From NCBI GenBank assembly GCA_002118135.1, contig BDIU01000157.1, forward strand, positions 1-64,000: a DNA stretch of 64,000 bases. Direction: 5' to 3'. Origin of the DNA: Trebouxia sp. TZW2008. Its lineage: Eukaryota; Chlorophyta; Trebouxiophyceae; Trebouxiales; Trebouxiaceae. Both the position numbers and the translations under genes were made by a program. Shown here one piece after another: positions 16,248 through 60,800 of the stretch. The notes beneath the pieces are model-generated. The model made no database searches. It saw nothing but the letters and a program-made list of their open reading frames with translations, and was not told the DNA's origin. Position 1 is the first letter of the stretch, and each line of letters begins with the position of its first letter.

Positions 16248-18614
16248 TTACAATGCTGCAAAGTGCTCAGCTCGCTCTGCAAGTTCAAGCCATCTGTCAG
16301 TTTTTGCATTGATATCATTGTCTGTCTGCGCCAGCCGCTCGCTTATCCTTTGCATCTCTGCCTGATCTCCTTTGGTCAGGATCTGATTCAGTTGCTGCTC
16401 CAAGCGGTCTTTTGTGCTGCTTAACTTGTCAATTTGCCCTTCAAGCTGTGCATATTCCTGTTTCTCCCTGCATCACCACAAGAAAGCATGTGACCTGGAC
16501 AAGCTGCAGCAGGTGATTAAGCCATTCCCTGCGCCCTTCTGCATCAAAAGCATGACCCCAGCGTGCACAATCAAACAAATCGCTGTCATATTGACACGCA
16601 CAAATCCGTCTAGACAGCAGTCTTTGATGATACCAATTGACAGCGTTCAGGTGAAAGGTAGTAAAGCAATGACATGCAGCAGACCATGGCGCATGTCATG
16701 CCAATTTCATTGCAGTACCTGTAACCAAGAGGCAGGATCTTGGCTTTGGCCTCATTTGCAGCCTTGTCCACTGATGTAGTAGCCTTGTCGACTGAAGCAG
16801 TGGGCTTGTCCACTGATGACGCGGCCATGTCAGTGCTGCTGTTGGCAGCTGCCTGCTTCTCTGCAATCCTCTCAATGTTTTCCATCTCCTCCAAACTCTC
16901 CAGATACTGCATGCAACACCATGTCAACCACAAGCCAAAATATTTTGTTAAATAAAATTCAGATTGTCAAGGTCATTAGTCGCAAGATGGTGTAGACATC
17001 AATGACATGGAATGAGTACACTAACTATATCAGATTCTGTCCAAAAATCAGAGTTGCCTGCTAGTGACTGGACCCAAAAGCATCATCACCATCAAGGGGA
17101 CTAAATGCATACAGACCAGCAGAACAGCTTCGCACTGTTGCATCTCATGCACTGCATGTTTGTGCCCTGTGACGTAAATTGCGAGCAAATGTACGCCTCA
17201 GCTGGTGAGTTGAGTGGATCCAAGCATGTCTGCAGCTGAGATTGTGCTGAAGCTGTCTGTGCTGTCTGTTGTGCTGCTACTGTCGGTCACAAGCGACAAT
17301 GCATCTCATGCACTGCATCAATAGGATGTCTAGGTATGCACAGTCAGCTCAGCCATGCACAGCCTAAATCACAGAACTGCTCATTGCAAGCTTACGCAGC
17401 ACGTCAGGAGGAGAAGTCCCTTACAGAGTGAAATGGCGTCTGGATATGTGCCATTGTACGGCCTGACCGGCCCTCGCCACTCACAACAAGCAGCTTGTCA
17501 GCCAAATGCTCCATGAAAGCTCTGTCATGAAAAGTTGCAAACAGGCAGCATGCAAAACGGTTAAGCAGGACTTGCAGAGTGACCGCACCTCTGAATATGC
17601 GCCATTGTACAGTCTGACAAAGCCGTCACCAGTCACAACAAACAGCTTGTCAGCCAAATGTTCCATGAAAGCTCTGTCGTGAGAAACCACCAGAAGGCAG
17701 CCCTTGTAGTCAGCCAACATATCCTCAATCACCTCTACCGTCTGCAGATCCAGATCATTGGTCGGCTCATCCAGGATGAGCAGATTTGGCTTCTCAACCA
17801 GAACTGCTGCAAGCTGAAGGCGGCGGCGCTCCCCACCACTCAGTGAGTTGACCTGCACACACAACATACAGACATCATGCACACAGAACAGACAGACATC
17901 ATGCACAAACATCAGACAGACATCATGCAAACATGCAAGACAATCGCCGCGCACACATGCCAGACAAAATGCACAGAGAAAACCAACAGGCAAGGTTGCA
18001 CCACGGCTACGCACATGTCAATCAGACATCAATTCCATGTGTCAATCGCTGGGAATCTCCAGCATGACCTCACACTCACCTCCAGAATCTGACTGCGCAC
18101 AAAACAAAACGCATCTATCACACTGAGGCCCACAACAACCCTAGCTTCCCTTGACAGGCTGCTGCGGTCATAAGATGCCCCTTGCATATTTACAGGCCGC
18201 CACATGGAACACGACGAACACTGTCCTGAAATAATGGCTTTGTAGTACACCCTTTGCATTGTTTGTTGTATCCTGCTGGAACTGTTGCACATGTAGCTTG
18301 GGCCTGAATTCTTTACTGGTACGCGGATCATGAGACTGAGATCATGAGACATACCAGCTGCTGTTGCCTGGGCCGTGCAAAGCCAAGGCGCTCAAGGATG
18401 ACTTCAGGCTGGAGGGCCAGACCCAAACCAGCAGCTTGAGCCTTGCTGTCATCTGCCACATCCCTGCATGCCCAAAAAGCAGATGTCAGAATGAAGCAGA
18501 CGCAGGAACAGCAGTGGCAGTAGCAGAACTGGAGCAGCGACAAGCCCAAGCCAGCTTGAGCCATACTTTCATTTGCCACATCCCTGTATGCACAACATGC
18601 AGATGTCGGAATCA

Positions 18615-18679
<65 letters not shown>

Positions 18680-21600
18680 CAGGGACCCAAATGAGAGAAT
18701 CAGGCAGCAGCAGCAGCTGCCCTGACATTGGCAGTAGCAATAGCAGAAGTAGCAGCACAGCCAAGCAAGTAGCTTGAGCTTTGCTGTTGTCTGCCACATC
18801 CCTGTAACCATGAGACACAAATATGAAAAGCAAGCTGAATTGGAGATACAGAAGGATGCATTTTATTCACTCCCGCCATTATTTGGCGGCAAGGTGGACG
18901 CAGCCAAAAAAGCGCAGTTTGACATGATGCGATGTCCCTCTCACATCAGCCGTAACAGTGTGACACAATGCATCTGACTGATTGACGGTATATGTATATA
19001 GTCATGCAAGCTACATGCATGCAAATGCTCAATGAGGTCCAAGTCATGCACAGAAGTGCTCAGTCACATCCGATGAATGCACATAGATGCTTAAGGACAT
19101 ATGACAGGCTCATCAAAGACTCACTTGATGTAGTCAACGATCTTGAGAATTGGCTTCACAGGCGGCGCGTGCTGCCTGAAGTAGCCCAACTGTGTTGTTG
19201 ACTCAATTTGCCTGTCACTATCTATGCAAGGCTCACAATTGCTGCAAACACAGGCAAGCATGCATATGCTCAATCATGCTTAGCAAATTACTTGAACAGA
19301 CTTACTTGATGTAGTCAATGATCTTGAGGGTTGGCTTCACAGGAGGCGCATGCTGCCTGAAGTAGCCCAATTGCGTGGTTTCCCCAATCTCCCTGTTGCC
19401 ATCTATCAATGATCTATCCCCAGTGAGCATATCCAGAAGGCTGCTTTTGCCTGCACCATTAGGACCCACAATGCCGATCCTCTCCCCAGGCACAAAACCG
19501 TAGTTGAAGTCTGTGATGATAGTTCTATCTCCGGCTTTGCATGCAGTGTCTTCCATGACTAAAACCTTATTGCCCTGCAGCAACAGCATGCACCATGGTT
19601 GACATCACTTGTCTTGCGTGAGGCGTCTTCCATAACCAAGACGTTACTGCCCTGCGGCATGAGCATGCTTGGCTCAAGTCACTTTGGGCAGCTCACAAAT
19701 ACATACAGTGCTGTCCAGGAGTCACATTCGCCTACCTTAAACAATTCATCGAACAGACAGTCACAGCTGCGCAGCGTTTGTTGAGCACATTCCACGCAGC
19801 TTCAGCCCAATATGACGATACCAAAATGACAACAGCTTGGCTTCTTCCTGTCTCTTCATGGTGCCGTCTCCAAAGTTGGCCTTAGGTCTTTCAAGACAGC
19901 GCCCAATTTGGGTCCACTGGGCAAAGCAACCTTAGACAGCTTATGAAACCATGCACTGCTGCTTCTTAAACACAGACGTGCACCTGTCTCATCATGTTTG
20001 GGTCTCCCAAATTGGTCCCAGACTTGTTCTTGGGCTCGTTGTGATGCTGTCACAAACACACTGGTACTCGCCTGTCTCATCACAGTGCCATCTCCAAAGA
20101 TGACCTACCACGTCTTTCTTGGAACCACTACGAGCCACTTTAGGCAGCTCATAGAAGGATGCAATGCTGCTTCTGACACACAGACTTGAAGCTGCCTCAT
20201 TGAATGTGATCCCCAAAGTCAGCTTGGCAATCATGCTTGTGTTTACTATCAGAGACCACAAGACTGCTGCAAGATGCCTGGTCTGACACACAGTTGCACA
20301 CCTGTCTCATCATGGTTCCGTCTCCAAAGTTGGCCTTCACATCTTTCTTGGGGCCGCTGCGAGCCACTTTGGACAGCTCATAGAAAGCTGCCTCTCTAGT
20401 CTTGGACTTAGTGCTCCTGGCTTTGGGCTGACGCCGCATCCATTCAGTTTCCTTCTTCAGCTGAGTCTTGGCAGTTGCTGCCACTGCTGCCTGGGCTGCA
20501 TACCGCTCGTACTGTGTCTGCAACCAGACAGAAAGGGTTTCAGATCAACATCAGGATTTGGGGTTTTGGGGATTGGATTGACTCATGTTGGGCTGGAATT
20601 GTATCAATTCAGGCTCCTTCTTCAGCTGGGTCTTGGCAATTGCTGCTACTGCTACTTGGGCCGCATACCGCTCGTACTGCATATCCAGCGGTACAGAGGA
20701 CGGGTCAAGTTGAGCACTTGAGATCTGCATTTGGGATCTTGTGTCAAGCTGGGATGACCTGGTTCCCATCATCACTCTGCCGCTCATCAAGTTCTGTCAA
20801 GGTGCTGATAATGATGTCAAGCTTAATGGTTGAAGGTATGATGCAAGGCAGGCTCAGCACACGTGGCGGAAGCAGTCATAGCTGCCATGCCCTCCAAAGG
20901 AATGCAGGTGGGCTGTGCCCTGGTCTAGCTCCAGACAAAATGGACAAAGCACAGTACATGATAATACACCTGGCGGAAGCGGTCATAGCTGCCTTCCCCT
21001 CCAAAAGAATGAAGGTGTGCAGTGCCTTGGTCTAGCTCCAGAATACCCGTACACACTGCCTCCATAAACATGCGGTCATGGGTAACCAGGATCAAGGTTG
21101 TGTTGCTAGCTGTCAGCCGCTGCTCCATCCACTTGATTGCCTGCAAAAACGTAGACATGATAAAGGAGATTGTTACAATGGCAGCAATGACCACCACAAC
21201 CATGCAAAATGAAATGCTGATGATAATGATAGGATTAAGGTTGTGTTGCTGGCTGTCAGCCGCTGTTCCATCCACTTGATTGCTTGCAAAGGGATAAACG
21301 TGATAAAGGTGATTGTTACAATGGTAGCAATGATCACAACAATCATGCAAAATGAAACGCTGATGATGATAGGATCAAGGTTGTGCTACTGGCTGTCAGC
21401 CATTGCTCCATCCATTTGATTGCCTGCAAAAACGTACAAATGCTCAAGGTCATTGTTACAGTGGCAACAATGATAGAAGTGAACATGCAAAATGAGACGT
21501 TCATGATGATACCACTATAGCAATCACTGATGGTATGCATATGAGCACAGATGCTACCAATGGCATGGTGTTGGCTGATGGTAATGCACTGCTTGCAGAT

Positions 21601-23473
21601 GCCGTCATTTAACTGGCAGACACTCTCATGCAGCTGTTTGCGTTTTGAATGCATCTGACTGCTCTGCTGCCACCACTGAGCAAGTCAGGCATGAAAAGGA
21701 AAGTGCAGTCAAGTCAGACGTGCAGATTGCATCAGCTAGACGCGCCAATGTGAACTAGAGTGCATCAGTCAGGGCGCTTTGACAATGCTGTCTGTGCCTG
21801 GTGAAAATCTTGCCCAGGAGTGAAGTGCCCCTGGTGTTGCACACGCTATATTTAGTGCTATGCAAGGCTGTTGCTACAGGTAAAACACAAGATTGCTCAA
21901 ACCAGACCCAGAGCCCGCTGTGTTCCTTCATAGGCTCTGTGTGCATGGTGTGCACCAACTGCAAAGCAAAGGCGACCAGGCATGCACACAATAGCACTAG
22001 CGAACTGGAATTGTAGTGACTCACCCCTAGGTCCATGTGATTGGTTGGCTCATCCAGGATCAGCAGATCAGGCGCAGCCAGCAAGGCAGCTGCTAGCGCA
22101 ACCCTCCTCTTCTGCCCGCCTGACAGCCCGCTGACTAATCTCTGAGTGTCTGGCATGCCTAAGCTGTCCAAAATATCCTTTGCATCTGCGCTCACCTCCC
22201 AGGCATTCATGGCATTCATTTCATCAAAGCACTTGTCCAAGTGCGCCTTGTCTTTTGCTGTGCTGTTGCCCGACGCTGCTGTTGACATTGCTTGCTCGTA
22301 CTGTGCAACAGTCTGGCTGGCAGATGATCCAGACTGAAGAACTGCATCCAAGACTGTGCCACTGCAGGCACCAAGTATGCAGATTCGGTCAATGGCAGCC
22401 CATTATGTTTGTCTGTCAACTCACAAACGAAATTGCAAATGACGCCACTGCAGGCACCAGAGATGCAGACTGGGCAATTTAATGAAAAGTCAATACCAGT
22501 TCGACCTGTCTGTTTCTATGAGGGCGCAGAATAGCTTTCGACACAACTGTTTGGAGGCAGTTCACTGCTTCTGCATGCACCTTGCAGGGTCATCAATCCT
22601 TGCTTGCAAGCAATCCAATGATGAATGGTGAATGACGACAACATATAACAAGCCTGTGTCTGGTGGATCAGCATGACTGCAATGGCATCCAGGCCATGAA
22701 AAGCCAGAATCGAAAAGAGCACGCCATTTGGGATCACAATGGCAGCCTCTGTAGTTAAAAGCAGCCTGCGATTGTTGCTTTTAAGAGCACTGGTGATACC
22801 TTTCATTCAGCTGTGGGTCTTGTGACAGATAGCCAACTGTCATGCCAGACCTCCGCTTGATGGCTCCAGTGTCAGGCTCATCAGCATCTGCAGAGACATT
22901 ATGCGCTCAAAATGTACTGCTCTGTGACAAGCTGGTCAGTGTTGCCGTGCACACTGCACAGGCAAAGTCACCTGAGAGAAGGTTGAAAAGTGAGCTTTTG
23001 CCAGCACCATTCGGTCCAACGAGGGCTAGCCTGTCGCCTCTCCTGACCGTGAAGTCAAGGTTTTGGAAAAGGATTCTTTGGCCGTCATGGGACTTCGAAA
23101 TACCCTCAACAACAAGAAGTGGCTCTGGTTGCTTGCGCTTCTTTGTGTTGGCTTGAGGGCGAGCACTGGTGACCGCTGCTGCTGAGGTCACATGCGTCTT
23201 GCGCCGACCAGCAGGCTGCCTGTCCGACTGGACTTGTCGGCCGCAGAGGCAGGTTTGCGAGCAAGGCAGTGGAGATCGCCAAGCCTGGCTCAGCAAGGGC
23301 TTTCGAGATAGGTGCGCGCTTCTAGGCGCAAGGTGCACAGTGCTGTTCACGCATTGCAGATGCATTGGCAGTCGAGCAATGAAAACCTGAATTTGCAACA
23401 CCCGCGCGATCGCTACAGCCTTGCCTGCTCTCGTGTCCGACTGCTGCAGCTCCGAAACCACATAGCAGGTCAT
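16248..23473 (-). CDS. Uup-type ABC-F ATPase, probably plastid-targeted
   Basis: Exons (5' to 3' on the minus strand): 23473-22972, 22887-22800, 22361-22025, 21140-20970, 20517-20302, a short exon starting at 19847 with unclear 3' end, 19574-19306, 18463-18355, 17852-17589, 16906-16719 and 16467-16248. The first ATPase unit has Walker A GPNGAGKSS, signature LSGGQKRR and Walker B LLILDEPTNHMD; the second has GPNGAGKSS, LSGGERRR and LLILDEPTNDLD, each followed by a THDR/SHDR switch. The linker ELEW-like segment (KKETEWMRRQPKARSTKSK) and the C-terminal coiled coil (KQEYAQLEGQIDKLSS onward) mark the Uup branch. Such proteins act on ribosomes and have no membrane domain. The N-terminus is Ser/Arg/Ala-rich; an internal Met codon at 23365 gives a leader without early acidic residues, typical of a plastid transit peptide. 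Nearly every intron contains copies of exon ends. Confidence 0.93.
17158..17302 (+). repeat. dispersed repeat, copy 1
   Basis: About 145 bp in the intron between ABC-F exons 17852-17589 and 16906-16719. Related copies lie at 54081-54220 and 59540-59680. It starts tttgtgccctgtgacgtaaa and could be read as FVPCDVNCEQMYASAG, but the frame does not stay open. Confidence 0.8.
17400..17540 (-). repeat. ghost copy of the 3' end of ABC-F exon 17852-17589
   Basis: On the minus strand this segment repeats the coding stretch from the SHDRAFMEHLADKL codons to the TACAATGG...TATTCAGAG end of the exon, with substitutions and indels, then runs into sequence resembling the following intron. It lies immediately downstream of the exon in the direction of transcription. 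Confidence 0.8.
18455..18810 (-). repeat. three copies of an ABC-F exon start, with an embedded CAG repeat
   Basis: The acceptor-side sequence gccacatccctg (plus strand) occurs at 18455, 18575 and 18793. On the minus strand the copies code for related peptides: VADDSKAQAAGLGLAL in the true exon (start 18463), VANESMAQAGLGLSLL and VADNSKAQATCLAV. Only the first continues into the conserved domain. A pure CAG run at about 18618-18676 sits between the second and third copies. Confidence 0.88.
19115..19220 (-). repeat. ghost copy of the 3' end of ABC-F exon 19574-19306
   Basis: The plus-strand segment from acttgatgtagtcaacgatc to about 19215 repeats 19305-19410, covering the codons for KPTLKIIDYIK and the donor site. 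It lies in the intron just downstream of the exon. Confidence 0.88.
19590..19665 (-). repeat. ghost copy of the 5' start of ABC-F exon 19574-19306
   Basis: Read on the minus strand this segment has a CCGCAG acceptor-like end followed by codons for GSNVLVMEDAS, a diverged copy of GNKVLVMED in the true exon. It lies directly upstream of that exon. Confidence 0.85.
19848..20165 (-). repeat. two ghost copies of the 3' end of ABC-F exon 20517-20302
   Basis: Plus-strand blocks at about 20072-20165 and 19855-19945 both resemble 20305-20400 (ccgtctccaaag through acagctcatagaa). The lower copy encodes NFGDGTMKRQ and runs directly into the next exon (EEAKLLSF) with no interruption. In the true exon the equivalent NFGDGTMMRQ is followed by a donor GT. 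Confidence 0.85.
20590..20690 (-). repeat. ghost copy of the 5' part of ABC-F exon 20517-20302
   Basis: On the minus strand this block encodes QYERYAAQVAVAAIAKTQL, against QYERYAAQAAVAATAKTQL in the true exon, then loses similarity. It lies upstream of the exon within the preceding intron. Confidence 0.9.
20870..20940 (-). repeat. ghost copy of the 3' end of ABC-F exon 21140-20970
   Basis: The plus-strand sequence tggcggaagcagtcatagct onward to the gtctagctccaga end repeats 20971-21043, which codes for LELDQGTAHLHSFGGEGSYD and following residues. Several substitutions separate the copies. Confidence 0.9.
21096..21430 (-). repeat. three-unit tandem array of an ABC-F exon start plus intron
   Basis: The segment coding for AIKWMEQRLTASNTTL together with about 95 bp of upstream intron is repeated. 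The common point ttgtgttgct (or ttgtgctact) begins at 21098, 21241 and 21381, giving periods of 143 and 140 bp. Only the unit at 21098-21140 continues into the rest of the exon (21140-20970). The other two carry similar acceptor-like ends. Confidence 0.93.
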
Positions 23474-23892: not shown

Positions 23893-26800
23893 ATGCAAGC
23901 GCCCGGCAGCGGTCCAGGCTTCGGCCCGCGACCACCGTATCATCCTGGTATGCAGCAGGTATTGGTCACGCTCGCTTTGCATTTCTGCAGCACCTTTGCC
24001 CGTTGACCCGAAAAACACCTGAACAGCGAGGTGTCGAACTCTACATTCCAGACCAAGAGCTTTCAGCCCAATGGGTTTGTGCAATGCACGTGCGACATTC
24101 CTGTGTCCTAACACACGGTGTCCAATAATCTCCCTGGACCACCATTGCACAAGCACTGCAGAGCCCCAAGTGGCAGGCAATGATCAGCTTGTCGTGCTGC
24201 AGGGTGGCTGGCAATCACAGCAGCCACAGCACCAGCAAAAGAGCATCCAGCAACCCTTCTTTGCCGCCCAAAATAGCTTCCCTCAGCAGTATGCGTTGGT
24301 GCCTCTCAATGCCAACGGTAGCGTGATGCCCGGTCCGCAGCAGCATGGCCTCAATCCAATGGTGCCTTCTCAAGGCTTTGGCATGGGAGGCCCTGCTTTT
24401 GCCAATGGATTCAAGTAAGCATCTTCATTCCCTGCGGACATTCACCAGGAAGACATGTAATGCCATGACTAAGCGTCCCCATTGCACAGTCACCTAAGGC
24501 TGGCTGAAGCTTTTCAGATTGCACATTCCACTTCAATGTATCTTTGCATTATACCACCACATTTTGATGTTGAGACGCAATTTGTCAAATGCGCAATCAG
24601 CTAGAACCAATGACATGCCGCTGTGTCTACAGCAACAATTATAGCGTCATCAGATGCACATTTGTGAAAGCCCGCAACATATCGCTGTCTGTTCACCGTG
24701 GCATCTGCATTGATTGCAGTGCGGCCCCATTTGCTGGGCCTCCCGGAATGGCGCGGGGAATGGGCCACAGGCCGCCCCCAGGCTGGCCCCTAATCGAGGG
24801 GGGACCAAGCAGGGGTGGTGGTAGGGGTAGGGGTCCCTCTCCTGCTCGTGGCGGTAGAGGCTTTTCTCAGGTGAAACTTCTGACATGCTGAATTGCTCCA
24901 TGCAGCAATGCAGCACTGCCATAGCTCTGTATGAATGCCAATGAGACGCCGATGAATGTGCACATGATTGGCCATGTGCAGGGCAGGGGCAGGGCGTTTG
25001 CAGGTCCAAGGGCAGGCCCAGCTGCTGCCTCTTCTGTGATGACTGAAGACTTGGAGGTCAATGCAGCAGATCTGTATCCATACTAATACTTTCGCATGCG
25101 GATGGATGAATGAATACATGCATGCCAATGTGCAGGGCAGGGGCAGGGCGTTTGCAGGTCCAGGAGCAGGCCCAGCCCAGCCCTCTTTTGGTATGACTAA
25201 GGACCAGCGGCGTAATGCAAAGGCCCTGGCGAAGCTGGACAAGCAGGTGCAGGAGGAGAAGCCTAGGGTATACAAACCCTTGGGTGAAGAAGAACGGCTG
25301 GAAGCTGCCAGGCAGGTCCCTGCTGTGCTAGCCATGCCTGCTTGACGTTGTCACATTCCGGATCTCGTGCTTGATCGTATTGCTGTTCTGCGACAGACAG
25401 TTTTGTTGCTTAGCATCAAGATTGCTTTAACAAGGGCGTCAAATCAGTTGTGTATGTGCATTTGTGCACAGCATGTGGCTTCTGACTGGCGCAGTGCAAA
25501 GCTGCACAATAACAGACTGCAAAGTTGCAAGTGGAATCACCGGCTGTTGCCTCACTTGACAGTAACCTCCAAATTACACAATGCATGACTCAGCATGGCT
25601 TTGTCCATGCCCATCTGCTGGCCTAGGAACACATCTGCCAGTGTCAGCCAGCAGACAGGATTCGGATCTCCACTGGGATTTCAGCGTTGATGGGTCTGTG
25701 TAGTGTCAGCTTGAGCAGGAGTGCAGAGGTCTTCTGTCAATTCTGGTTTCATGTTGATGTCTTGGTGTGACAGGCGGCAGGGTGCAAGGCGGGCATTCCC
25801 CGACAGCTGCCAATGTGGATATCAGAGCAGGGCCAGCAGCTCAGTGTTGACAGGTCTGCCAAATTCAGGCTTGTGAAAGTGCAGGTATCGCATGTGGCAC
25901 ATTCTGATTGTGACGTCCAAAACAAGGCTTGGCTACACACACCTGGCAATGCACCAGCATGTGTAACAAGCAATTATCGGTGCTGTTACAGTTGGCAGGC
26001 TGAAGGCGTAATGAGCTTGAAGGCACAAGCAGCTTTGATGCTTGCCTTACAATTCAGGTTTCAGGTTGGTGAAGTTTAGAGGTGTGATGACGTCATGTTG
26101 ATGGTGTTGCTGTTGTAGGTGGCAGGCTGAGCGGCGCAAACACTACCCAACATCTTCCAACCTGACCTTGAAAGCAGAGGCAGCATCAAAGCGGCAGGCC
26201 AGAGGGGAGCTAGAACCTGAGACTGCTCTCAGGCAAAAGCGCCTCCAAGAGGTACAAATCAATAGAGTAGCTTCCACAACAGCTTTGGGACCTTTGTCAT
26301 GATTGTCTTGATGCTCTACAAATCCTTCCTGGCAGGCCTTGAACATATGTTGTAGTAGAAATGATATCGGAGGTGGCAGTGGCAGTGGCGATGCTAGCGG
26401 CAATGATGATTTAGGACTGATGATCAAGTTTAGGCCACCGCCACCGCCACCGCCACCGCCACCGCTACTGCCGCTGCCGCTGCCACTGCCACTGCTACTG
26501 CCACTGCTCACAAATTGTGCTCATGCAAGTACTATTGAAAGCGCAGTGCCCCTGCTCAGCTGATTGGTATCTGGGCAGCACAGCATTGGCCATGACTGCC
26601 GCCCTCGTAAGCTTCAGCTCAAATCAAACTTGGGTGACATGCGACGTGCGCTGGAACACCCCCATTTCCTGCAGTACTACTTTTCAAGCACCTACATTCC
26701 AGCGACCTAACAATACCATGCAGAGACTCTCAAACAATTTCCCAATACTTGAAAAATGCTGTCAGATGCACAGTGCTTTTCCTTGCATACAGACTCTTGA

Positions 26801-29800
26801 CTTACAAACTTTTTGAAGTGAAGATCACGCACTTGTGAAAACATCATTGCATTCTGAATGCAGTTGTACCTCTGAGTAAGCACACTTTATGTAAGGACAG
26901 TTTCATCAGTGACCAAAGCTGTCAATATAAGGACTTCACTGGAATTGCAACCATAGGAAGAGCTGGCAGTATGTGTTCAGAAAGTGGCAGGCAGACATTG
27001 GGCACCAACCAAACTTTTGGTTTGCAGGTGCTGATAAGACAAAGGGAGCTGGGTTTGCAGCAGATAGCAGGCACAGCAGACATGCCCATAGACGGCCAGC
27101 CCAGTGGTCAGATGACAGTGCCCTTTGCTGGCAGAGGTATTGCATACAATGACTTGCCGCTGCAACTTCTACTGGGCTGTTTGTGAACATTTTTGGATGG
27201 GTACTTGCTGTTTTGTCCCAATGCATTGGCCGTCAGGCTATATGACACAGCCCTTTTGCTGGCAGAGGTACTGCACACGATGCCTTGCCACTGCAACTTT
27301 CACTGGACAGAACTGTTCATGAATTCTTTTCTTTTCTGATGGGCATTTGCTGTTTGGTCCCAATGCATTGGCTGTCAGGAGGCACGACAGCGCCCTTTGC
27401 TGGCAGATGTACTGCACACAATGACTTGCCGCTGCAACTTCTGCTGGACTGTTTATGAACTTTGTTTTGATGGGTACTTGCTGTTTGGTCCCAATGCATT
27501 GGCTGGCAGGTTGCATGACAGCGCCCTTTGCTGGCAGAGGTACTGCACACAATGACTTGCCTCTGCAACTTCTACTGAACACAGCTGTTCATGAACTTTC
27601 TCTAGTGGGTACTTGCTGTTTGGTCCCAATGCATTGGCCGTCAGGTTATATGACACCGCCCTTTGCTGGCAGAGGTATTGCACACAATGCCTTGTTGCTG
27701 ACAATGCTATGTACACATAGCTTATGATGCAATTCATGTGATAGCTTGTCCTGGCCTCTGTTTGCTGAGTTTCCATCGACATCATGCCATTCTGCTTAGT
27801 GGAAAAGGTCTTTTTGTTTTGGACTCTTTTTATATCATTTTCTGAACTAGTCTCTAGTGTTCTTTGGTTTCCCAAACTGTTCTGCACTAGTTGTTTTGAT
27901 ATTTTGATAGGTCGTGGTGGTGGAAGAGGAGATTTTGGGAGTAGAGGAAGGGGCAGGGCAGGGGGTTTTGGCAGGGGCCCTGGTAGGGGCTTTGGCAGAG
28001 GCCCTGGCCGGGGTCCTGCCTTTAAAAGGCCTTTTGAAGGGGAACCACCCAATGGGCAGCAGGCAGCCAAAAGGCACAAGTCTGCCATTGAAGCAACACG
28101 CCTCAATGGGCAGTTTGCCAACGAGGCAACAGGTGTTAACGGGCAGAGTGGAGGGCTTGCTAGCCTGGCTCAATACGGCAGTGATGATGACGATGCCAAT
28201 GGTGATGCTGATGATGGCCCCGTCAATGGCTCTGGTGCTCCTCAAGGTCAGTACCATCCCTTGTAGGCATCACGTAAAGCCTCACTCAGCACATCTTCCC
28301 TGTCTAATTGACTGGTAGTTCGATGAGAAAGGTGATCACCAGAATGATGCTGATGCTGATGCTGATGCTGATGCTGCAGTCTCGCATGGCGCTCCTCCTC
28401 AACAGCAGATCTTTTGAGGTCAACAGCAGATTGTTGTCATCATTTGCATGTGAAAGCTACACGAGACACATACGAAGTGATTGTGGGATTGTCACCATTG
28501 AATTCAAACACAGGTTGCATGTGCCAGCACAGATAATAGGTGTGTGTGGCCCAAATGCTGTCTGCTGCGATGCTGGCTGTTGTTCTGCTACTGGTGTCTG
28601 TGCTTGTAATCTTACCTCACTCAATGTCACTTGTTACACAGCACTGCATTTGTGCTCAGGACTCTTTTCTGGTAGTGACCGCGAACATATATATACTCTT
28701 GCCTGACTTGAAGTTCTTTTGCAGGTGATGCTCAGGGTCAGGCTGAACTGAAGGGACCCCAGGGGGCTGCAGCCGCTGGCCCCCTTCAGCCTCCCCAGAC
28801 CCCTGAGGAGAAGCAAGCCCTCTACCTCAAAAACAAGGCCCAGGTGACTTTGCCTTTGCTTGCCATGACCAAGCCACAAAGCTTTGATCCCAAAGTTTAA
28901 GATCCTGCTGGCTGCCTTGCATGCTTCCTGTCAAGGGCATTTGTTACTGGGATACCAGCTGCACCAGCAAATGGTGGTAAGGCACTTGTTAGTCACGTAA
29001 TCTTGTGACCTGACTGCCCTGTGTTGAGCGCCTTGTTACTGCTCTCTCTGCATCTGTTCATCTTGCTGGCCTGTTATTGCTCGACATTGTCAAGATGACG
29101 CACAAGAAGTGTACCAGCCAGGCAGATTGACGGCGGCGAAGTACTGCTCGTGCAGCCTTACATTGCTTGAGACACCCTGTCTGGACAAAAATTCTGCCAG
29201 CACGTGCAATAACCAATATTGCAAGGCCTGTGCTCCATCTCTGATGGTTTGTAATGTGGTACAAAGACTTCTCTTCTAAAACTTGCTTTGGTCCCCAAAA
29301 AGTTGTCCTTACATCAAACTGTCCTTACTAAGAGTCCTTACTACTGCAGCCAGACTGCAGCGATTGGGTACCAATTGCATTGTCTTTGCATTGAAAATGT
29401 CCTCACACCAAGTGGCCTTACAAAGAGAAGTCACTGTATGTCGAATTGCTGCAGATTGAGCGGCAGCAGCAGCAGCATCAGGAAAAGATGGAGAGGAGGA
29501 AAAAAGCGCAAGAGCAGTGGCAGGAACGGAGAGGGAGGGGTAGGGGCCGAGGGCGGGGGGCTGCAGGGAGGGGTCAAGGAGGCCGACAAATCAACAGGTC
29601 TGCTGTCGCATATGCCTTATATGAAAATTTCCGCTGCAACTGCCAGCTTGAGCAACACATCAGGATTGTGCTCTTCTGTATTCACCTTGGCCTGTGCATC
29701 AAAGAGAAAGGCGAAACATCATACTCGTTACACAATCTTTTCAGCAGGCGTGCTTTTGGCTTTGCTGCATTTTACTGCTGAGTGCGTCAATGTACTCTCC

Positions 29801-34369: not shown

Positions 34370-34555
34370 CACAAAGATTCACTAGTCGCAGCTGTATGTT
34401 CAGAGACTTCTTTCTTGAATACAACGCTGTGCAACTTTGGACGTTCAAAACGGCCTTTTGACCTAAGTTTGACCTAACTGGTCAAATTGCACTGTGAAGG
34501 TTGTAGCAAGCGCTGCGTGCGATAGCGTTTGCTTCTCACAGACAGGTCAGACAAA
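34370..34555. promoter_or_regulatory. compact bidirectional promoter region of the armadillo gene and RPB12
   Basis: Only 186 bp separate the two divergent start codons, so both promoters and leaders must lie here or overlap the genes. A repeated tttgacctaa/gtttgacctaac element occurs at about 34456-34475. No TATA box is evident. Confidence 0.6.
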
Positions 34556-34720
34556 ATGAATGCAGGTACGTATGGCAATCCAAACGTAGCGTACATCTGC
34601 GGGGACTGTGGAACAGAGAACCAACTGAAGACCGGGGACGTGATCAGGTGTCGCGAGTGCGGCTACAGAATTCTCTACAAGAAGCGCACGAACAGAGTTG
34701 TACAGTTTGAAGCTCGATAG
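34556..34720 (+). CDS. RPB12: RNA polymerase subunit shared by Pol I, II and III (Rpb12/RPABC4)
   Basis: A single-exon frame of 54 residues, close to the 58 of human RPABC4. The zinc ribbon reads [10 protein letters not shown] then [16 protein letters not shown], giving two CxxC pairs, and the protein ends VVQFEAR like its relatives (VVFDAR). The subunit sits at the Rpb2/Rpb3 interface and is needed for polymerase assembly. The start Met is preceded by a purine-rich acaaa context. This is the only intronless gene in the window, and it diverges from the armadillo gene. Confidence 0.96.
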
Positions 34721-35245
34721 CACAGGCTGCTAGTATTGCTGCACCCCTCTATTTGCCTTGCAATGAGCTGGGCTTCGTTTGAGACTGTGCTAGGAAAATG
34801 AAGTGCAGCAGTCATGTCAACAAGCTGAGTGAGTAATTTTCTGCACGGTGGCAAGTGCTCAGGTCCAGCGTTGTCAGACCGGGCAGTGCAGAAGATGCTG
34901 GTTGCCGACATAGAAATTTTCAGCTTGCTGCCACAATCTGACAGCATTCAGCGACAGGCTAGAAGTAGTCACATGGACATCATTGAAGTGGGCCGCAAAC
35001 TAGGCAGTGCTTTACAAATGAGGTGTTTCCTGCTCTTCAATGTGTTCACATGCTATTGCACGCCTTGTCTGATTTGAGTCAGCACTCAGGGCTGGTGATA
35101 TGCGCAGTGTAGGCGTAGCTATTCAACGTAACATTTTGTACATCAAGTTCTCATGTATATCAAGTATACAGCTGTTCATTCTTGAATCTTGATGCCTTGA
35201 ATTCTGTAACAATCGCAAAGCCTCCTCATGACCTTTGTTTTTTGC
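34721..35245. other. 3' region of RPB12 converging on the first cNMP-binding gene
   Basis: Noncoding sequence with no supported exon; it should contain both 3' UTRs. Confidence 0.5.
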
Positions 35246-43299: not shown

Positions 43300-43340
<41 letters not shown>

Positions 43341-52100: not shown

Positions 52101-52119
52101 CATGCACAACTGCAGGCCT

Positions 52120-53804: not shown

Positions 53805-56179
53805 ATGTCGGGCAAAGGCATCACTCTGTACACTGCCGGGACACCAAACGGCTGGAAAGCCAACATTCTGGTTGAGGAGCTTCACATTCCCTACAAAGTC
53901 CATGCCATAAGCCTGTCCAAGAATCAGCAAAAGGAAGACTGGTACATCAAAATCAACCCCAACGGTCGCATACCTGCCATTGGTGAGGCCTGCAATGTAC
54001 TCACTTTGGTCAACCTGTTATGTACCACATTCAAATGCACAGCCCATTGCACAAGACAAATCTCAAGTCATGCTGTGTCTGATTTTGTCTGTGACGTGAA
54101 TTGCAAGCAAATGTACCAGCTGGTGACTTGCGTGTATCTGAGGCTGTCTGCAGCTAAAAGTGTGCTGGCGTTTTGTGTGCTGTCTGCTGTGCTGCTGCTG
54201 TTGGTCATGAGCGATAACACTTCACAGGTAATGTTGTGAATGTCTGTGGAAAGGACACCATGCTGTGTCTTCAGTTGACCATGATGAAGAGGATCTACCA
54301 GTGTTTGAGTCCGGAGCACTCATGATTTACCTTGCTGAAAGGGATCCAGCGGGCACCTTTCTGCCCAAGGACAAAAGGAAACGGGCCGAAGTCATCTCAT
54401 GGCTGATGTTTCAGATGGTAAGCACTGTTGCACTCAGGTAGCCTCCTCACATTTAAAATTTTTGAATTTGACCTTCCTGTCTCCTGTGACGTGCCTGCAA
54501 AACCTGACTGGGACCCATATGAGACGTGATGATGACTCTGGCATAGGAATACTTGCAACACAACTCACACTCAAGGCGATGCATATGCCACATAATTTTG
54601 CACAGACTACAGTCATCACAGTTGCTGCTGCTTACATTGCTGCATCTGCACTGGGGCATGTGTCAATTGTCTGCAAATCAAGTGGACTGCTGTAGGGAGG
54701 TGTGGGGCCAATGCAAGGCCAAGCACACCATTTTATCAGATATGCTCCTGAAAAGATTGAGTACGGCATCAAGAGATATACAAACGAGACCCGGCGGCTG
54801 TACCAGGTGCTTGAAGGGCATCTCAGCGAAGGCAGAGAGTGGCTAGCAGCTGGGCAGTACACCATTGCTGACATTGCCAATTTTGCATGGATCTATGAGC
54901 ATGCATGGGCAGGTACGCCGCTTAGCCTTTGCATGGGTCTATGAGCATGCATGGGTATGAATGCTGTATGTATGCAGCATGGGCCCATGAGCATGCATGA
55001 GCAGATATGACAATTGCATCTTCAAATGTGTTTATGGGCAGGTATGACCTCTGCACCTTTGCATGGGTCTGTGTGCATGCATGAGCAGTAGACCATTGCT
55101 GACATTGCCAACTGTGCTTGGGTCTATGAGCATGCACGGGCAGGTATGACCTCTGCGCCTTTGCATGGATCTATGAGCATGCATGGGCAGCATCGTCTGA
55201 GTGAAGGCAGAGAGTGTTTAGCAGCTGGGCAGTGCACCATTGCTGACATTGCCAGTTTTGCATGGGTCTATGAGCATGCATGGGCAGGTACTACTACACC
55301 GTTGCATGGGCCTAAGAGCATGCATGGGTATGAGCATTGCACCTTTGCATGGGCTTACGAGCATGCATTACGCAGGTAAGACCACTTGACCTGAAAGTGC
55401 CTGCAATCTGTAACAACAGCTTTGCAGGCACAGCTGATCACAGAACATGATCTGAGGACAAGCCCAGAACCCAGTCTAGCTGATCAACACATTGCATTGA
55501 CCATCAAAAGACGCTAGAAGCAGTTCAAATTCTTATGAGCTTGGCATTCAATTCTTTTGTGATGATGGATACACATGTTGATTTCACAAGTGAACTTGAA
55601 GTTGACTTGTGAAACAGACCCGTGTTATACGTAGTTGGCGTTGCAATGCAATGTTCCAGCCACAGGTCACCGCCACATTCTGCATACACAGTCAACTTTG
55701 CGCAAGTCATCATGTTCAGGCCCCCAAGTGACACGACCGAACTTCTTCAGGCATTAGACTTTGCACCTACAGCAGATACAATAGAGCGCTCTTCCTTTGA
55801 TCATTTTGTTGGGATAGCACAGGTTGGGAGGAACAGTTTGATAGAGTGCGGCTTGCCAACAGCTAAGCGTCAGTACTGAATGGTGATGCATATGTAATGA
55901 TTTGCAAATGTTGCAGTAGTCATGCTGGGTGAGTGAAGTCAGCAGCAAGGGCTTGCAGCGTTGAGTCATGCGTCAACGCAGTTTGATGGCAATGCAGGCA
56001 TTGATCTTGATGAGATGCCACACTTGAAAGCATGGATGCAGCGCATTGAGAGCAGGCCAGCTGTGCAGAAAGGCCTTGACATCCCAGAGGAAAACATTCA
56101 CAAGCAAATTGCGAAAGACCCCAAGAAGAAACAGGAGCTGATAGAGGAGGCCTGGAAAATGATGGTCAGCCTCAAATGA
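53805..56179 (+). CDS. glutathione S-transferase of the Ure2p/YfcG class
   Basis: Four exons, 53805-53982, 54275-54417, 54696-54912 and 55998-56179, join in phase and give 239 residues, the usual length for the class. The N-terminal domain starts [25 protein letters not shown](W/F)K is the active-site loop typical of YfcG and Ure2p, where Asn replaces the catalytic Tyr or Ser. NPNGRIPAI and [13 protein letters not shown] form the glutathione site. The C-terminal domain has [18 protein letters not shown] and [12 protein letters not shown], the capping motif. The protein is presumably cytosolic and has no leader. Bacterial relatives have disulfide-bond reductase activity; whether this one does is inference. 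The third intron is filled with copies of the end of exon three, and the 3' UTR repeats the end of the last exon. Confidence 0.95.
54081..54220 (+). repeat. dispersed repeat, copy 2
   Basis: Lies in the first intron of the intact GST gene. It matches 17158-17302 and 59540-59680, most clearly in tgtgacgtgaattgcaagca and the ctgctgttggtcatgagcga end. It is the most diverged of the three. Confidence 0.75.
54885..55375 (+). repeat. array of copies of the end of GST exon three
   Basis: The exon end, tgcatggatctatgagcatg followed by catgggcag and the donor, recurs with small changes at least eight times, around 54935, 54980, 55068, 55125, 55165, 55265, 55310 and 55350. Some copies are longer: 55196-55292 also repeats the upstream codons for [19 protein letters not shown], and 55085-55145 repeats the TIADIAN part. 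Confidence 0.95.
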
Positions 56180-56760
56180 AAGTGGTAGACGAGGCCAGAA
56201 CAATGACGGCCAGTCTTATTTCACAGTAATAGAGAAAGACAACACTATGATGATCAGCAAAAGATCCCAAGAAACAGGAGCTGATAAAGGAGGCCAAAAC
56301 CAGACGGTCAGCCTCAAACGAGATTGACCTGAGCCTGGCTGCTGACTCAACAGCTGAAGGCACGACTCTGATTCTGATAACATACCTGGTACTTCACTGT
56401 TCTGGTCTCTTTTACTTCTTGGCGATCTGTGAGCAGAGTTGCAATCTGTCTGGATCACCTAGGATGTGTTGCTGTGATTTGTTGAAGACAGTGGGTGCTA
56501 GATTGCAACATCATTGCCTAAGCTGACAAAGTATTGTAAGACCTGCTGAATGCTGGCTCCGCAGCTTCTGGCATGACTCTCATTCTGTCAACTTAGTTTG
56601 TACTTTACTGTTTCCTTTCTGCTTACATGGTGATGTTTGAGCAGAGTCCCAGCCTGTTGGATCATCTTAGGTCTGTTGCTGTGCATTGTTTGACACAGCA
56701 GGTGCTGAAACGCCTTGGGCTGACAAAGTACTTGGGATGCAATAGTGAGCAGAGATGTGT
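56170..56760 (+). repeat. duplications in the GST 3' flank
   Basis: The end of the last exon (agaccccaagaagaaacagg to ctcaaatgaaag, ending 56184) is repeated at about 56258-56325 with a gap and substitutions. Further on, 56425-56540 (gagcagagttgcaatctgtc to gctgacaaagta) recurs at about 56638-56735. Confidence 0.82.
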
Positions 56761-56959
56761 GAGCCAAGGATTATACGCACAGGCACAAAACAGCTTTTGG
56801 ACAGGATTGTTTGGAGGCATTTCACTGCTTCTGTATGCACCTAACAATGTCATAGGACCTCTTTAGAAGGTCTTGATGATGGTGATGTTGATGATCAGCA
56901 GGAGGGATGATATCTTGATTCAGCATTGGTCAATTGCTTGCCTTGACAAGCCACAGGCA

Positions 56960-57750
56960 TTTTTTTGTGACTAAATGCTGTAAACTTTGTGGCTGAGTGC
57001 TGCGACTTTTGTGACTAAAAGTTGCAAATTTTGTGATTGAGTGCTGCTATCTTTTGTGGCTAGCTGCTGTAACTTACAACTCAGTAAGCTTCATGGCTGA
57101 GTGCTGTGTCTACCTACTGCTGTGTGCTGCAGTGTAATTAGGTGCTGCTAGCCTTTCTAAATGAGAGCTGTAACCTTTATGGTGGAGTGCTGCTACTTTT
57201 TGTGCTAAGTACTGCTACCCCCTGTGCTAAGTGCTGCTATCCTTTGTGGCTAGAGGCTGCATTCTTTGTGGTTGAGTGCTGCTGTCCATTGTTGCTGCGT
57301 GCTGCAACCTTTGCGGCTAGGAGGTGCAACTTATGCGGTTGAGCACTGCATCCTATGCTGCTTTGTGGTTGAACACTGTGGTTCAGTGCTGCTTATCTTT
57401 GTGGCTACTGCAAGCTGTGAAGCAACTGCAGCTGCTTCAAGCAGTAATTGAGTGCTGCTGTCCTTTGCGGCTGTAGCTATTTGGCTAAGTGCTGTAACCT
57501 TTCTGTTTGAGTGCTGCAACCTTTGTGCTTGAGAGCTGCTTTCGTTTGTGGTAAAGCTCTGCAGCCTGTGTGATTGAGCGGTGCACATTGTCGTTGAGCG
57601 ATGCTGTCCTTTGTGGCTGACTAAGTGCTGTAAGTGCTGCTATGATTGTGATTGAGGGCTGTGGCCTTTGTGCTGACTGCTGCAATGCTTTGTGGCTAAG
57701 TGCTGCAATTTTTGTGGCTCAGTACTGCTACCGTCTGTGGCTGAACGCTG
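56960..57750 (+). repeat. minisatellite of about 26-32 bp units
   Basis: About 790 bp is built from imperfect copies of a motif such as tttgtggctgagtgctgcaa. Unit length and sequence vary. It lies just upstream of the bZIP gene start. Confidence 0.92.
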
Positions 57751-57878
57751 CATCTGCCTACTGCCGAAGCCAAGCAGGAATTGCCGCCGTTTCCTTACGT
57801 GACCAGTCATGGTCACATGCTCTTTCATGTCAAGTCGGAAGCCGAACGCAACACCAGTTAGTCAGGATTGACTCGGCG

Positions 57879-60800
57879 ATGAGGTCCAACTTGTTAAAGC
57901 TGTGTCCAGATGTTAAAGTGCATAAACTCCCGGCTGGTGGCGCTGTAATACAAGTTGAGGAGGTGGCACGCTACATTAATGCCATGCCGCAGACCGTGTC
58001 TTTGTCGCAGCTGCTGGACAGACAAGCGATCTCGGGGCCCACTGGCCTCGACTCCAACTTGAACTCTGCCAACGCGGACGTGGACTACATATCGGAGGCC
58101 CTCGACTTGTTTGACGCAGATCAGCTGCTGACACCGCCCTCATTGCAAGCAGAGTGCCAAGCTGAGCTGCCGTCGCAGCCCAACCCGTATTCAAGACCAA
58201 CAAAACAGGACGCAGCGCAGCGCCAGCAGGCTAACCGTGAGCATCAACGGAAGTTTCGCCTCCGACATAAGGCAAGTTTTGCTGCCCCGCTCCTGCATCA
58301 ACACTTGCAGGTCCAGCGGTAGACTTGTCAGCTTTGTTTTGTACAGGCAAGGTCCCAGGCTGTTCAAACACAGTTGACCAGCACTATTGCAAAGCTGAAG
58401 GAGCTCAGGTTCCGTCATCAGCAGTTGCAAGCTTTCTTACTGAACTCAACAAACGCAGATGCTGGCTTCAACCCTCCTTTGACAGACTTGAATTCATTGC
58501 TGGTAAGACACCACAAGCTCCTGTTCTTAGCCTTGTTTGCCCATCTTTACCGCCGCAGCCATCTTGTTTGACATAGATCATGTTGTACACAGACTAGTTT
58601 TGTCCTGCCAGGATCAGCCTGTCTGATGTAGTACTTGTGAAATTCAGGTCAGGAGTCATGCTAAAACACAAGCTCATGGCAAAAGGGCACGTGGCGATTA
58701 TTCTGTCTCCTTGTGCAACAGACACTGTCATATGACACCCACAGAGGTCATTGAGCTGTCCACAGCTCAGTTTTTCACCTTGTGGATGGTAAGATGCATT
58801 CATACATCATACACAGCTGCTCTCACAATATGCCACAGTCCTGCATGCCTGTGCATAAGCATCAAGCACAGCATTTGAAGCTCAACGCCAGCTTAAGACA
58901 CATCTTGATGCATTTGCACTGCGTGTGCACCAAGCTCAACACGCTCCACATGCGCAGACTATAAGCTTATTGATGTAGCATGCAGACACTGTCTGCAGAA
59001 GCCTGCTGGTCAAGCCTGAAGGCTGCAATGCAAATTGCTTGAGTACATGACAGCACTGGCTCATGACATGCAGGGCTATGTAGAAAAGCTGGCCTCACAG
59101 CTCATTCAGTTGGCAAGAGGGCAAGCGTCAGCAGTGAAGCAGATGCACACAGTCTCTGTTCAAGCCATGGGCCTGCTGTGCCAGCGTATCCTATACAGTC
59201 CAGCTGTCTTTCTGGATGTGATATGACAGCACGTGCTGATCACATGTAAGGTTATGTTGAAGAGCTTGCCTCACAACTCATGAAGCTAGCAAGAGGAGAG
59301 CCATCAGCATTGAAGCAGATGCACACACTCACTGTCGAAGCCATGAGACTGCTGTGCCAGCGTATTCTGCACAGCCCAACTGCCTTTCTGGATGTGATCG
59401 CCAGCATAGCAAACAAGGGGCAAACAGCATATCCACAGGACAGCTACTGTGCCCCCAGTGTCCTGGTAAGTCCTGTTTGGCTGAGAAGATAATCACAACA
59501 AGGACAAGATGCTGGTCATGGTGTGCTGCACAGGGCTCCTTTGTGCCCTGTGATGTAAATTGCGAGCGAATGTATGCCTCAGCTGGTGGAGCTGAGGGTG
59601 TCTGCAGCTGAGATTGTGCTTGTGCTGAAGCTGTCTGTGCGGTCTGTTGCTGCGCTGCTGTTGGTCACGAGCGATAGTGCACAGGCAGTAAATTCCAGGT
59701 CATGCTACAAGTGTCTACCTGAAAAAGACACCAGAAACACAAGGCTCCACACCACCACGTGCAGGCCATGCCTGCAACTGATTGGATCAAACAACCTAAT
59801 GTATTCCCTCATGAGTGATGAGTCAGCTTACCAGAGAGTAAACATTATACCTTGCATACGTCAGCACAGGTGGGTGTGGCCCAAACCATGTTTCGCCAGG
59901 CATCAGAGAATAGTACGATTGATCATCCTTCTGGCTCTCTTGCATTGTTGGTGCATGGCTTGAAAGGCTGTTCAACCTATGCGACTGCATTGCTGCAACT
60001 TTGGCTGCAGATGCCTTGAAAATGTCTTCTGTCAGGAGAGAGCAGACAGTTGCTTGATGCAGTTTGCAATGCATGTCAAGTAGCAGACACAGCACAGCTG
60101 CTTCATGTGTGTTTCAGAAAAGAGTCTGTGAGCATTTGCAATAAACTGCCACCCAAACATAGCAGCACTTACAAGCCATCAAGTGCTAGATACAATGCTG
60201 ACATTGCGTTTCTTGTATCCCACTCTGGAGGTATATGCCTAACCCATGCTTTCTTGTGACAAATTCTTTGTATGATGCATGTATTGAACTGCCCTCCGAC
60301 GTAAAGTCCATATCAGCTGATGCTGTCTGAAGCAACAGCGTGTTTGTGTTGGCAGGCAATGATGAACCTAAGCAAGGAGCAGATCGATGACCTGCAGCAT
60401 GTGCGCCGTATGTATGTTGCTAAGCACCGCTTACTGACCTTCAAGCGCCAAGCACTTGCGCGGCTTGCATCAGAAGAAGTGATGGGTCCCCAGCATGGCT
60501 TAACTGCAGCCTTGGAACTGACTGCAGCCGCCAAAGACATCACAGATCAAGAGTTTGAAGTACGTGGCAGGGATTGCTGTTTGGTGTGGGGTGAGTACAG
60601 CTTGCGCTTCTGTTTGCTTCACTTGCATGAGTCATGCATCATGGCAGCCCGTGCATAAATCTAATTACTGCATTGCTACTGGAAAGATGAATGTCATGTG
60701 CTGATCAAGCAGCATATGCTGAGAACATGCATGTTTTGCTTGAATTCTGCTCCCCTGTACAAGCCAATGAGCCAGCCTGAGTGTCTTGACTTACCTGCAT

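Follow-up and report, generated by a model that had tools for sequence, protein, structure and literature searches.

Drifting copies of exon ends and small tandem duplications in the introns of a Trebouxia genome

Why do the introns of unrelated genes in one stretch of an algal genome carry degraded copies of the ends of their own exons? The question was raised by a sequence-only reading of positions 1–64,000 of contig BDIU01000157.1 (assembly GCA_002118135.1, Trebouxia sp. TZW2008), hereafter the window, in which such copies, here called ghosts, were described in seven genes. We examined the window with home-made, ab initio gene models, in which some called exons are ghosts, and with a repeat survey of 250 kb, taken as 25 chunks of 10 kb (six from the window and 19 others) and controlled by one first-order Markov shuffle per chunk. 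The window's final 4 kb lay outside the repeat survey, and L019 (1,699 bases) was excluded from every statistic.

The pattern is best resolved in the ABC-F ATPase gene (gene model 16248–23473, minus strand, as are all its features), the exons of which were checked by aligning the single-copy relative P0001. Exon-end ghosts were present in five of its nine introns, with two ghost-like exon calls omitted. The P0001 alignment supports functional exon ends at 17571–17685 (donor 17589) and 19298–19406 (donor 19306) and a functional exon start at 18432–18538 (acceptor 18463). The first of these has a ghost at 17420–17533 that is 81.7% identical and has an altered donor GT, and the second has a ghost at 19117–19225 with 84.4% identity, a donor-like GTGAGT and a stop codon after the exon part. 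At least two ghosts of acceptor 18463 and its exon start lie at 18552–18806, the first of which retains the AG. Further exon starts are copied at 19614–19668 (from 19537–19591, acceptor 19574; 78.2%) and 20603–20679 (from 20438–20514; 88.3%), and further exon ends at 20056–20162 (from 20286–20391, donor 20302, with another copy at 19847–19892) and 20859–20935 (from 20966–21042; 88.3%, the intron part not rising above control). A three-copy array at 21088–21511 has a 143-bp unit, composed of about 90 bp of intron end and 53 bp of exon start, and the functional acceptor 21140 falls within its copy at 21088–21230.

Comparable copies were found in the other genes. On the plus strand, the NUFIP1-like gene has tandem copies at 24951–25050 and 25105–25204, each with an acceptor and both called as exons in the gene model, and a 4.3-copy array of a 131-bp unit at 27112–27694, the first copy of which crosses donor 27136. 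On the minus strand, the armadillo gene has a ghost at 32340–32517 of the exon end at 32559–32736 (donor 32578; 87.6%), and the lower-coordinate cNMP half has one at 36444–36503 of the exon end at 36674–36733 (donor 36700). The upper-coordinate cNMP half, also on the minus strand, contains an array of a 158-bp unit (43955–44322) with the functional donor 44264 and ghosts at 43955–44163 and, at higher coordinates, acceptor 44606 with three ghosts (44658–44735, 44741–44808 and 44879–44917, within 44553–44917) and acceptor 45494 with a 34-bp ghost at 45589–45622 (94%; region 45467–45622), the intron part of which was not above control. Two changes in 59 bp had been reported for 44106–44164, and this count was nearly right: compared with 44264–44322 there are two mismatches in the first 54 bases and 6/59 position by position, the rest falling in the final five, unaligned bases. 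The remaining genes lie on the plus strand. In the KH gene a short ghost of 37 bp (49380–49416) copies acceptor 49581 (region 49380–49592). In the GST gene, donor 54912 is followed by a ladder of ghosts (54821–55388; best copies 55082–55146 and 55196–55291), and the end of the last exon is accompanied by a ghost at 56257–56321 (region 56111–56321), the gene's exact 3' end being uncertain. The bZIP-like gene shows a whole-exon tandem duplication with a 176-bp unit (59047–59398), in the second copy of which the acceptor AG has become AA and the intron flank is not above control.

Hence each of the seven named genes has at least one degraded copy in an adjacent intron, as the sequence-only reading had stated. 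Its wording that such copies occur in introns across most multi-exon genes holds for genes but not for introns: by the gene models, 15/86 introns in the window carry an exon-end ghost, and the SBP-domain gene (model 3905–15938, 18 introns) has no exon-edge ghost. Likewise, the statement that only one copy per array is coding stands for ABC-F against P0001, and elsewhere by gene model, but 25/146 non-redundant repeat pairs in the sample have exon calls in both copies, some of which may themselves be ghosts.

The density of copies had been presented as peculiar to one locus, which understated its reach. Local direct repeats made up 11.9% of the 250 kb sample and 11.7% of the six window chunks; inverted repeats made up 1.3% of the sample, and shuffled sequence gave almost nothing. 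In the 25 chunks, 236 direct and 23 inverted matches were counted, versus 0 and 3 in the shuffles, and a BLAST of the window against itself (E ≤ 1e-3) returned 66 direct matches, 56 of them within 5 kb, versus 1 inverted match. Local direct repeats were present in 18 of the 19 non-window stretches of 10 kb, and 59/317 introns in the sample carried an exon-end ghost. Exon-end copying is a genome-wide trait, and the window, being average for the genome sample, is unexceptional. Rfam returned zero families at the gathering threshold. The proposed link between repeats and long introns was borne out: introns with a repeat of at least 30 bp (n = 83) had a median length of 558 bp, or 359 bp once repeats were subtracted, versus 314.5 bp for introns without such a repeat (n = 234), an association to be read with the caveat that longer introns also offer more room for repeats.

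The structure of the copies shows that they arose in tandem. Of 77 single-exon ghosts, 75 sit in the adjacent intron, and among these 67 reach or cross the splice site, while six end more than 10 bp short of it. Intron parts were tested for homology in pairs offset by 60–260 bp whose intron part was 20 bp or longer, using 60 controls per pair; 44/62 were homologous (z > 2), 38/62 exceeded all 60 controls, and 18/62 lacked clear homology. The copies are thus in direct orientation, adjacent and within the same gene, as in local tandem (internal gene) duplication, and duplication of the whole unit including its intron part was found for the 44 pairs and not for the 18. Unit size was unimodal, with a median of 151 bp and quartiles of 117 and 187 bp; 70 arrays had units of 120–260 bp and 2 had units of 260–400 bp, versus 55 expected if the distribution were flat. 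Offsets were evenly distributed modulo 3 (37/42/38). A single pair of copies made up 81/117 arrays, a few arrays reached 3–4.3 copies, and seven were near-complete two-copy arrays. The opposite exon border was also spanned (by at least 10 bp) in 1/75 ghost pairs, so that tandem exon duplication or mutually exclusive exons do not describe the class, the bZIP-like exon being a whole-exon copy.

The ghosts decay neutrally. Mismatches at codon positions 1, 2 and 3 amounted to 13.1, 10.5 and 24.2%, with 18.9% in the intron part; together these values roughly fit a neutral ghost paired with a constrained coding copy. Most copies differ by 10–30%; identity reached 90% or more in 9/146 pairs and 95% or more in 1/146, which leaves the suggestion of a continuous process unsupported. 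Splice dinucleotides in the best ghosts matched at 0.857 per site, compared with 0.82–0.86 on the exon side and 0.74–0.79 in the adjacent intron, and both bases were intact in 36/49 ghosts, where the identity of the adjacent intron predicts 29. Ghost splice sites showed no sign of purging, their dinucleotides being preserved to about the same degree as the exon side. Scores at or above the 10th percentile of functional sites were obtained for 32/47 scored ghost sites, in agreement with the earlier suggestion that the copies supply candidate decoy splice sites.

These observations are very probably explained by random small tandem duplications that survive in introns or across one splice site and leave drifting ghosts. 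The genome would acquire many such duplications, typically of 120–190 bp, at random-looking positions, and those within introns or straddling one splice site could survive. Judging from homology and the gene models, splicing probably keeps to the outer copy, in which the exon is complete, and the inner one (exon piece, splice signal and intron piece) would then drift inside the intron; repeated rounds would produce ladders, longer introns and many decoy splice sites. Exon-containing ghosts, being paired with a coding copy on which selection acts, would stay recognizable longest, and exon-end copies would therefore dominate what is seen. Duplications wholly within exons or of whole exons are assumed to be weeded out. 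The cause of a duplication of about 150 bp may perhaps be fill-in repair of staggered breaks or an Okazaki- or nucleosome-length intermediate, an idea that we hold weakly. A broader reading, which we offer as tentative and somewhat doubtful, is that tandem duplication of nucleosome or Okazaki length is a main source of intron growth in this lineage and has left on the order of ten thousand duplicated splice sites, at which the spliceosome bypasses the intron-proximal copy, often intact, in favour of the distal copy with the complete exon; the estimate scales 59 affected introns per 254 kb to 68.5 Mb and holds if the sample is representative.

Alternatively, duplication might be aimed at exon–intron borders, for example by a transcription- or splicing-coupled lesion. 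The exon-edge excess, counted both by pairs and by arrays, points in this direction: 48% of pairs were at exon edges versus 25.7% (sd 4.3) under random placement, 78/106 (74%) versus 47–60% in forward decay simulations, and 89/107 genic arrays touched an exon (89 exon-touching, 18 purely intronic and 10 intergenic arrays overall). Moreover, the exon part of the units peaks at intermediate depth. A point against random duplication itself is that the exon part of the survivors is shorter than simulated (median 54 versus 70 bp, KS p = 0.002). On intron sequence alone, however, the excess nearly vanished: with exons masked and equal settings for both classes, 27/78 exon-edge pairs and 27/28 pure-intron pairs were still detectable, and another masked run gave 29 and 28. 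The 27:27 result is near the 0.32:0.36 expected for randomly placed 160-bp units. The clear preference for exon ends that the raw 48% versus 26% had suggested was thereby levelled, and the self-alignment proposed as a check upheld the direct repeats, far above shuffles, but lost most of the exon-end excess under masking. Splice-site targeting, favoured by raw counts and weakened by the simulations, was set aside after the masked test and is in our judgement unlikely; the excess is mostly preservation bias, although a real excess of perhaps 1.5-fold may persist, since an exon-edge unit carries less intron for recognition. Wholly exonic pairs (10 observed versus 10.3 expected) and pairs of a whole exon with an intronic copy (2 versus 2.2) were not depleted relative to random placement, so the assumed purifying selection is invisible in the counts.

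That the ghosts are kept for a function, whether as alternative exons, as regulated decoy sites or as splicing enhancers within introns, would suit the 32/47 well-scoring sites and the stretches 19125–19175 and 24982–25056, which are open and in frame. This is nevertheless very improbable, given splice dinucleotides no better preserved, roughly, than the exon side and a difference at codon position 2 (10.5%) close to what a single neutral copy would show, so that the exon part of the ghosts bears no mark of coding selection. A mobile family would also be repetitive, intron-located and equipped with splice signals, as are introner elements, which in algae are dispersed across genes. Six ghost units were searched against 68.5 Mb (counts being lower bounds, with very common words skipped): among the listed matches five matched their own array only and the sixth also two GST paralogs, and no dispersed family was listed for any of the six. 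Each of the units tested is thus confined to a single gene or to paralogs of it, unlike introners, and an introner-like element can hardly be the source. Within the GST paralogs the ghosts are mostly independent. One intron position is common to three paralogs, where the intron measures 169 bp (no ghost), 833 bp (two ghosts) and 1085 bp (six or more); being common to all three, it has there been lengthened, not gained. The two best ghosts in the window share 89.2 and 92.7% identity with their own exon, against 75.0 and 75.5% with the exon of the paralog L023. Of the two ghosts in L023, one is closer to the exons of the other paralogs (83% over 46–47 bp) than to that of L023 (76% over 72 bp). 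Assembly errors, in the form of false tandem copies or collapsed haplotypes, would account for copies that are tandem and local, and the scarcity of near-identical copies (1/146 at 95% or more) could reflect collapsed young repeats. Yet most copies differ by 10–30% in a codon-position pattern that errors would not produce, local direct repeats occur in 18/19 other stretches, and an artefact is as remote a prospect as a mobile family.

Random duplication with drifting ghosts has partial precedents. In one published case, supported by RNA, a single tandem duplication gave rise both to a new intron that is spliced and to an extra piece of exon, and a second, purely intronic tandem duplication of 83 bp is also noted. 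As here, the unit ran from the end of an intron across the splice site into the start of an exon, and its copies differ by point changes; here, however, many duplications lie within existing introns, with no protein change apparent. In the AGGT model of intron gain, in the part available, small internal tandem duplications likewise feed intron evolution, but exonic AGGT is duplicated to provide both splice sites, whereas here an existing site is duplicated and an old intron grows. The account of this model cites Gao and Lynch 2009 as well as Hellsten 2011. The AGGT form does not fit these ghosts, 67/75 of which reach or cross an existing splice site. For Drosophila (PMC2891723), the available text cites frequent, mostly tandem duplications (median 367 nt, many exon-touching), but concerns a few new intron positions in coding sequence and not ladders of ghosts. 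Homology-independent small tandem duplications were shown in mouse and human cells at induced overhangs of 43–50 bp, a known route to such duplications. The available part of the Asterochloris genome paper (PMC6652019) describes introns more numerous and larger than in fungi and leaves 'tandem repeat' unmentioned. By title and abstract start, the literature covered, which excludes most subscription journals, does not describe the pattern in green algae.

In the parts of the literature examined, tandem duplication across splice sites appears as single or few cases, compared with about one intron in five here. Relics of many ages beside their originals amount to a naturally occurring set of duplicated splice sites, which would allow the study of spliceosome choice, the rate of decoy decay and conversion to exon or intron. 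If the broader reading above is true, successive datable copies would reveal how the choice of splice site withstands duplication and at what point a decoy turns into a new exon or intron. For gene annotators the copies are a caution, as ghost-like copies can be called exons; our gene finder made such calls.

The host genome comprises 68.5 Mb in 527 contigs. For comparison with the window (C152:1–64000), 19 segments, each 10 kb long, were drawn from 16 contigs; one of these segments directly follows the window on C152, and window and segments together come to 254 kb. Local direct repeats made up 11.9% of 250 kb of this sample, window chunks included, and inverted repeats 1.3%; after a single Markov shuffle of each chunk, 0 direct and 3 inverted matches were found. 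With 11.7% local direct repeats in its six chunks, the window is average for repeat content within the sample. The degraded copies of exon ends ("ghosts") described in the sequence-only reading are present, but their density is a genome-wide trait and not peculiar to one locus. The 10 kb following the window (C152:64001–74000) carried inverted repeats on 1211 of 10,000 bases, far above the sample mean.

A purpose-written ab initio gene finder, trained on the sample, produced 35 models with 317 introns (median 363 bp) and splice consensus sequences AG/GTRAGY (donor) and TGCAG/G (acceptor); the models merge some adjacent genes and count some ghosts as exons. Pfam matches in translated model pieces confirmed SBP, NUFIP1, cNMP, KH, WW, GST and PRA1 domains. 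For the armadillo piece the match fell short of the curated cut-off; no Pfam match came up for the bZIP-like piece, whose gene name is that of the earlier reading. Among 8000 scored candidates, the relatives of the cNMP protein were four Trebouxia sp. proteins (C0004, C0005, C0006, C0009) with 50–56% identity; Trebouxia relatives of one cNMP half were 536–626 aa long. The intron positions of the two similar cNMP-domain halves (33198–41641 and 41959–47426) seem to differ around the SYHKLSL..IKS linker motif. The Trebouxia genomes described in PMC11523091 are 63–74 Mb with a GC content of 49.6–51%, values with which the present genome agrees in both respects.

The sample yielded 146 non-redundant pairs of matching copies: 78 combined an exon-touching with an intronic copy, 28 were purely intronic, 15 touched intergenic sequence and 25 had exon calls in both copies. 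In 75 of 77 single-exon pairs the ghost lay in the adjacent intron (40 on the donor side, 35 on the acceptor side), and 67 of these 75 ghosts reached or crossed the splice site. The intron part was homologous (z > 2 against random introns) in 44 of 62 pairs within size limits, and in 19 of the 36 pairs whose BLAST match ended ≤25 bp from the splice site. Such homology past the BLAST end is the pattern expected from border-crossing tandem duplication, in which the duplicated unit would span the exon–intron border, both intron parts would drift and one exon part would be kept by selection. In the ABC-F gene, 5 of 9 introns contained exon-end ghosts, and each ghosted segment occurs a single time in a relative with 71% identity. 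Taken as the smallest offset in each array, unit size formed one peak with a median of 151 bp and quartiles of 117 and 187 bp (n = 117 arrays). There were 70 arrays at 120–260 bp and 2 at 260–400 bp, a range in which 55 would be expected if sizes were evenly spread; the lower size limit is partly set by detection, the upper is not. Ten intergenic arrays differed, with a median of 466 bp. Separate from the 150-bp class, a degenerate array of ~22-bp units lies 5' of the bZIP-like gene (56962–57752), and long GCA runs occur in or beside introns at 18616–18682 (22 units) and 43295–43339 (15 units).

The ghost arrays are probably best explained by small tandem duplications at random-looking positions, with intronic ghosts left to drift. 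A mobile element was rejected as their source: six ghost units searched genome-wide matched their own arrays only, except for the GST unit, which also matched both paralogs, and while match counts are lower bounds (at least the own-array matches for each unit), no dispersed copies were among the matches listed. Duplication aimed at exon–intron borders is improbable, even though raw counts exceed both random placement (exon-edge share of 48% versus 25.7%, sd 4.3) and forward simulations that combined random duplication with decay and an assumed purifying selection (78 of 106 pairs observed; 47–60% simulated). The coding partner, however, keeps pairs of this kind recognisable. When every exon was masked, with equal settings for both classes, 27 of 78 exon-edge and 27 of 28 purely intronic pairs were still detected (29 and 28 in a first version); random placement of 160-bp units gives 0.32 border to 0.36 intron. 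The exon-edge excess was thus visible in the raw counts but levelled out under masking, and aiming at exon ends is unsupported; a modest excess is possible, since an exon-edge unit has less intron for recognition. The exon part of surviving copies had a median of 54 bp versus 70 bp simulated, a difference perhaps due to the stronger false exons that longer exon pieces make. Neither pairs wholly in exons (10 versus 10.3 under random placement) nor whole-exon copies paired with intronic copies (2 versus 2.2) were depleted, which counts against the assumed purifying selection, although exonic pairs should also decay slowest, qualifying this lack of depletion. An argument from whole-exon counts was dropped, as random placement yields an equal count.

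At codon positions 1, 2 and 3 the mismatch between ghost and coding copy was 13.1, 10.5 and 24.2%, respectively; in the intron part it was 18.9%. A neutral rate of ~10% per copy accounts roughly for all four figures, and the ghosts are neutral. Both splice dinucleotide bases were intact in 36 of 49 ghosts, with 29 expected from adjacent intron identity, and per-site identity was 0.857, like the exon side. Moreover, among the ghost sites that were scored, 14 of 20 donors and 18 of 27 acceptors (32 of 47 together) were at or above the 10th percentile of functional sites; of the ordinary dinucleotides in introns, 19.4% of GT and 9.4% of AG reach this cut-off. Decoy splice sites are therefore common, and the dinucleotide and site-score tests (49 ghosts and 47 ghost sites) gave no sign that they are purged or specially retained. 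The graded divergence of the copies had been read as a continuous process, which the age distribution does not support: across all loci of the sample, 9 of 146 pairs were ≥90% and only 1 was ≥95% identical, whereas uniform-age simulations placed the 95th percentile of identity at 97–98%. Either duplication has slowed or young copies were merged in assembly.

The window GST and its paralogs L023 and L024 have an intron in common, placed at one and the same residue; it measures 169 bp without a ghost in L024, 833 bp with two in L023 and 1085 bp with at least six in the window. The two best window ghosts matched their own exon at 89.2 and 92.7% identity and the L023 exon at 75.0 and 75.5%; for the L024 exon the values were 88%, across just 25 bp, and 75.3%, across 89 bp. 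One L023 ghost had 82% identity with its own exon, compared with 72% for the window exon; the other, which may be older, fits the paralog exons better but over a shorter stretch. Ghosts closer to their own exon than to those of paralogs indicate separate gain in at least two GST copies. L023 also has an extra local direct repeat (1401–1445 and 1510–1553, 84%) near the acceptor end of this intron.

Tandem duplication is a standing model of intron gain (PMC3443670, PMC2891723), a duplication across an intron–exon border is described as an intron gain in potato (PMC4974935), and small tandem duplications can arise by break repair (PMC8355091). In the two Trebouxia genome papers, the word "tandem" is absent from the main text, and "intron" appears there once in one paper and never in the other. 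The density, the mode in unit size and the collection of decoys seem to be new. The NUFIP1-like gene has tandem copies at 24951–25204 that each retain an intact acceptor and are each modelled as in-frame exon sequence (~25 aa); they are a candidate potato-type exon and intron gain. A 51-nt ABC-F ghost at 19125–19175, in frame and AG/GT-flanked, repeats QHAPPVKP..DYIK and, were it ever spliced in, could act as a cassette exon.
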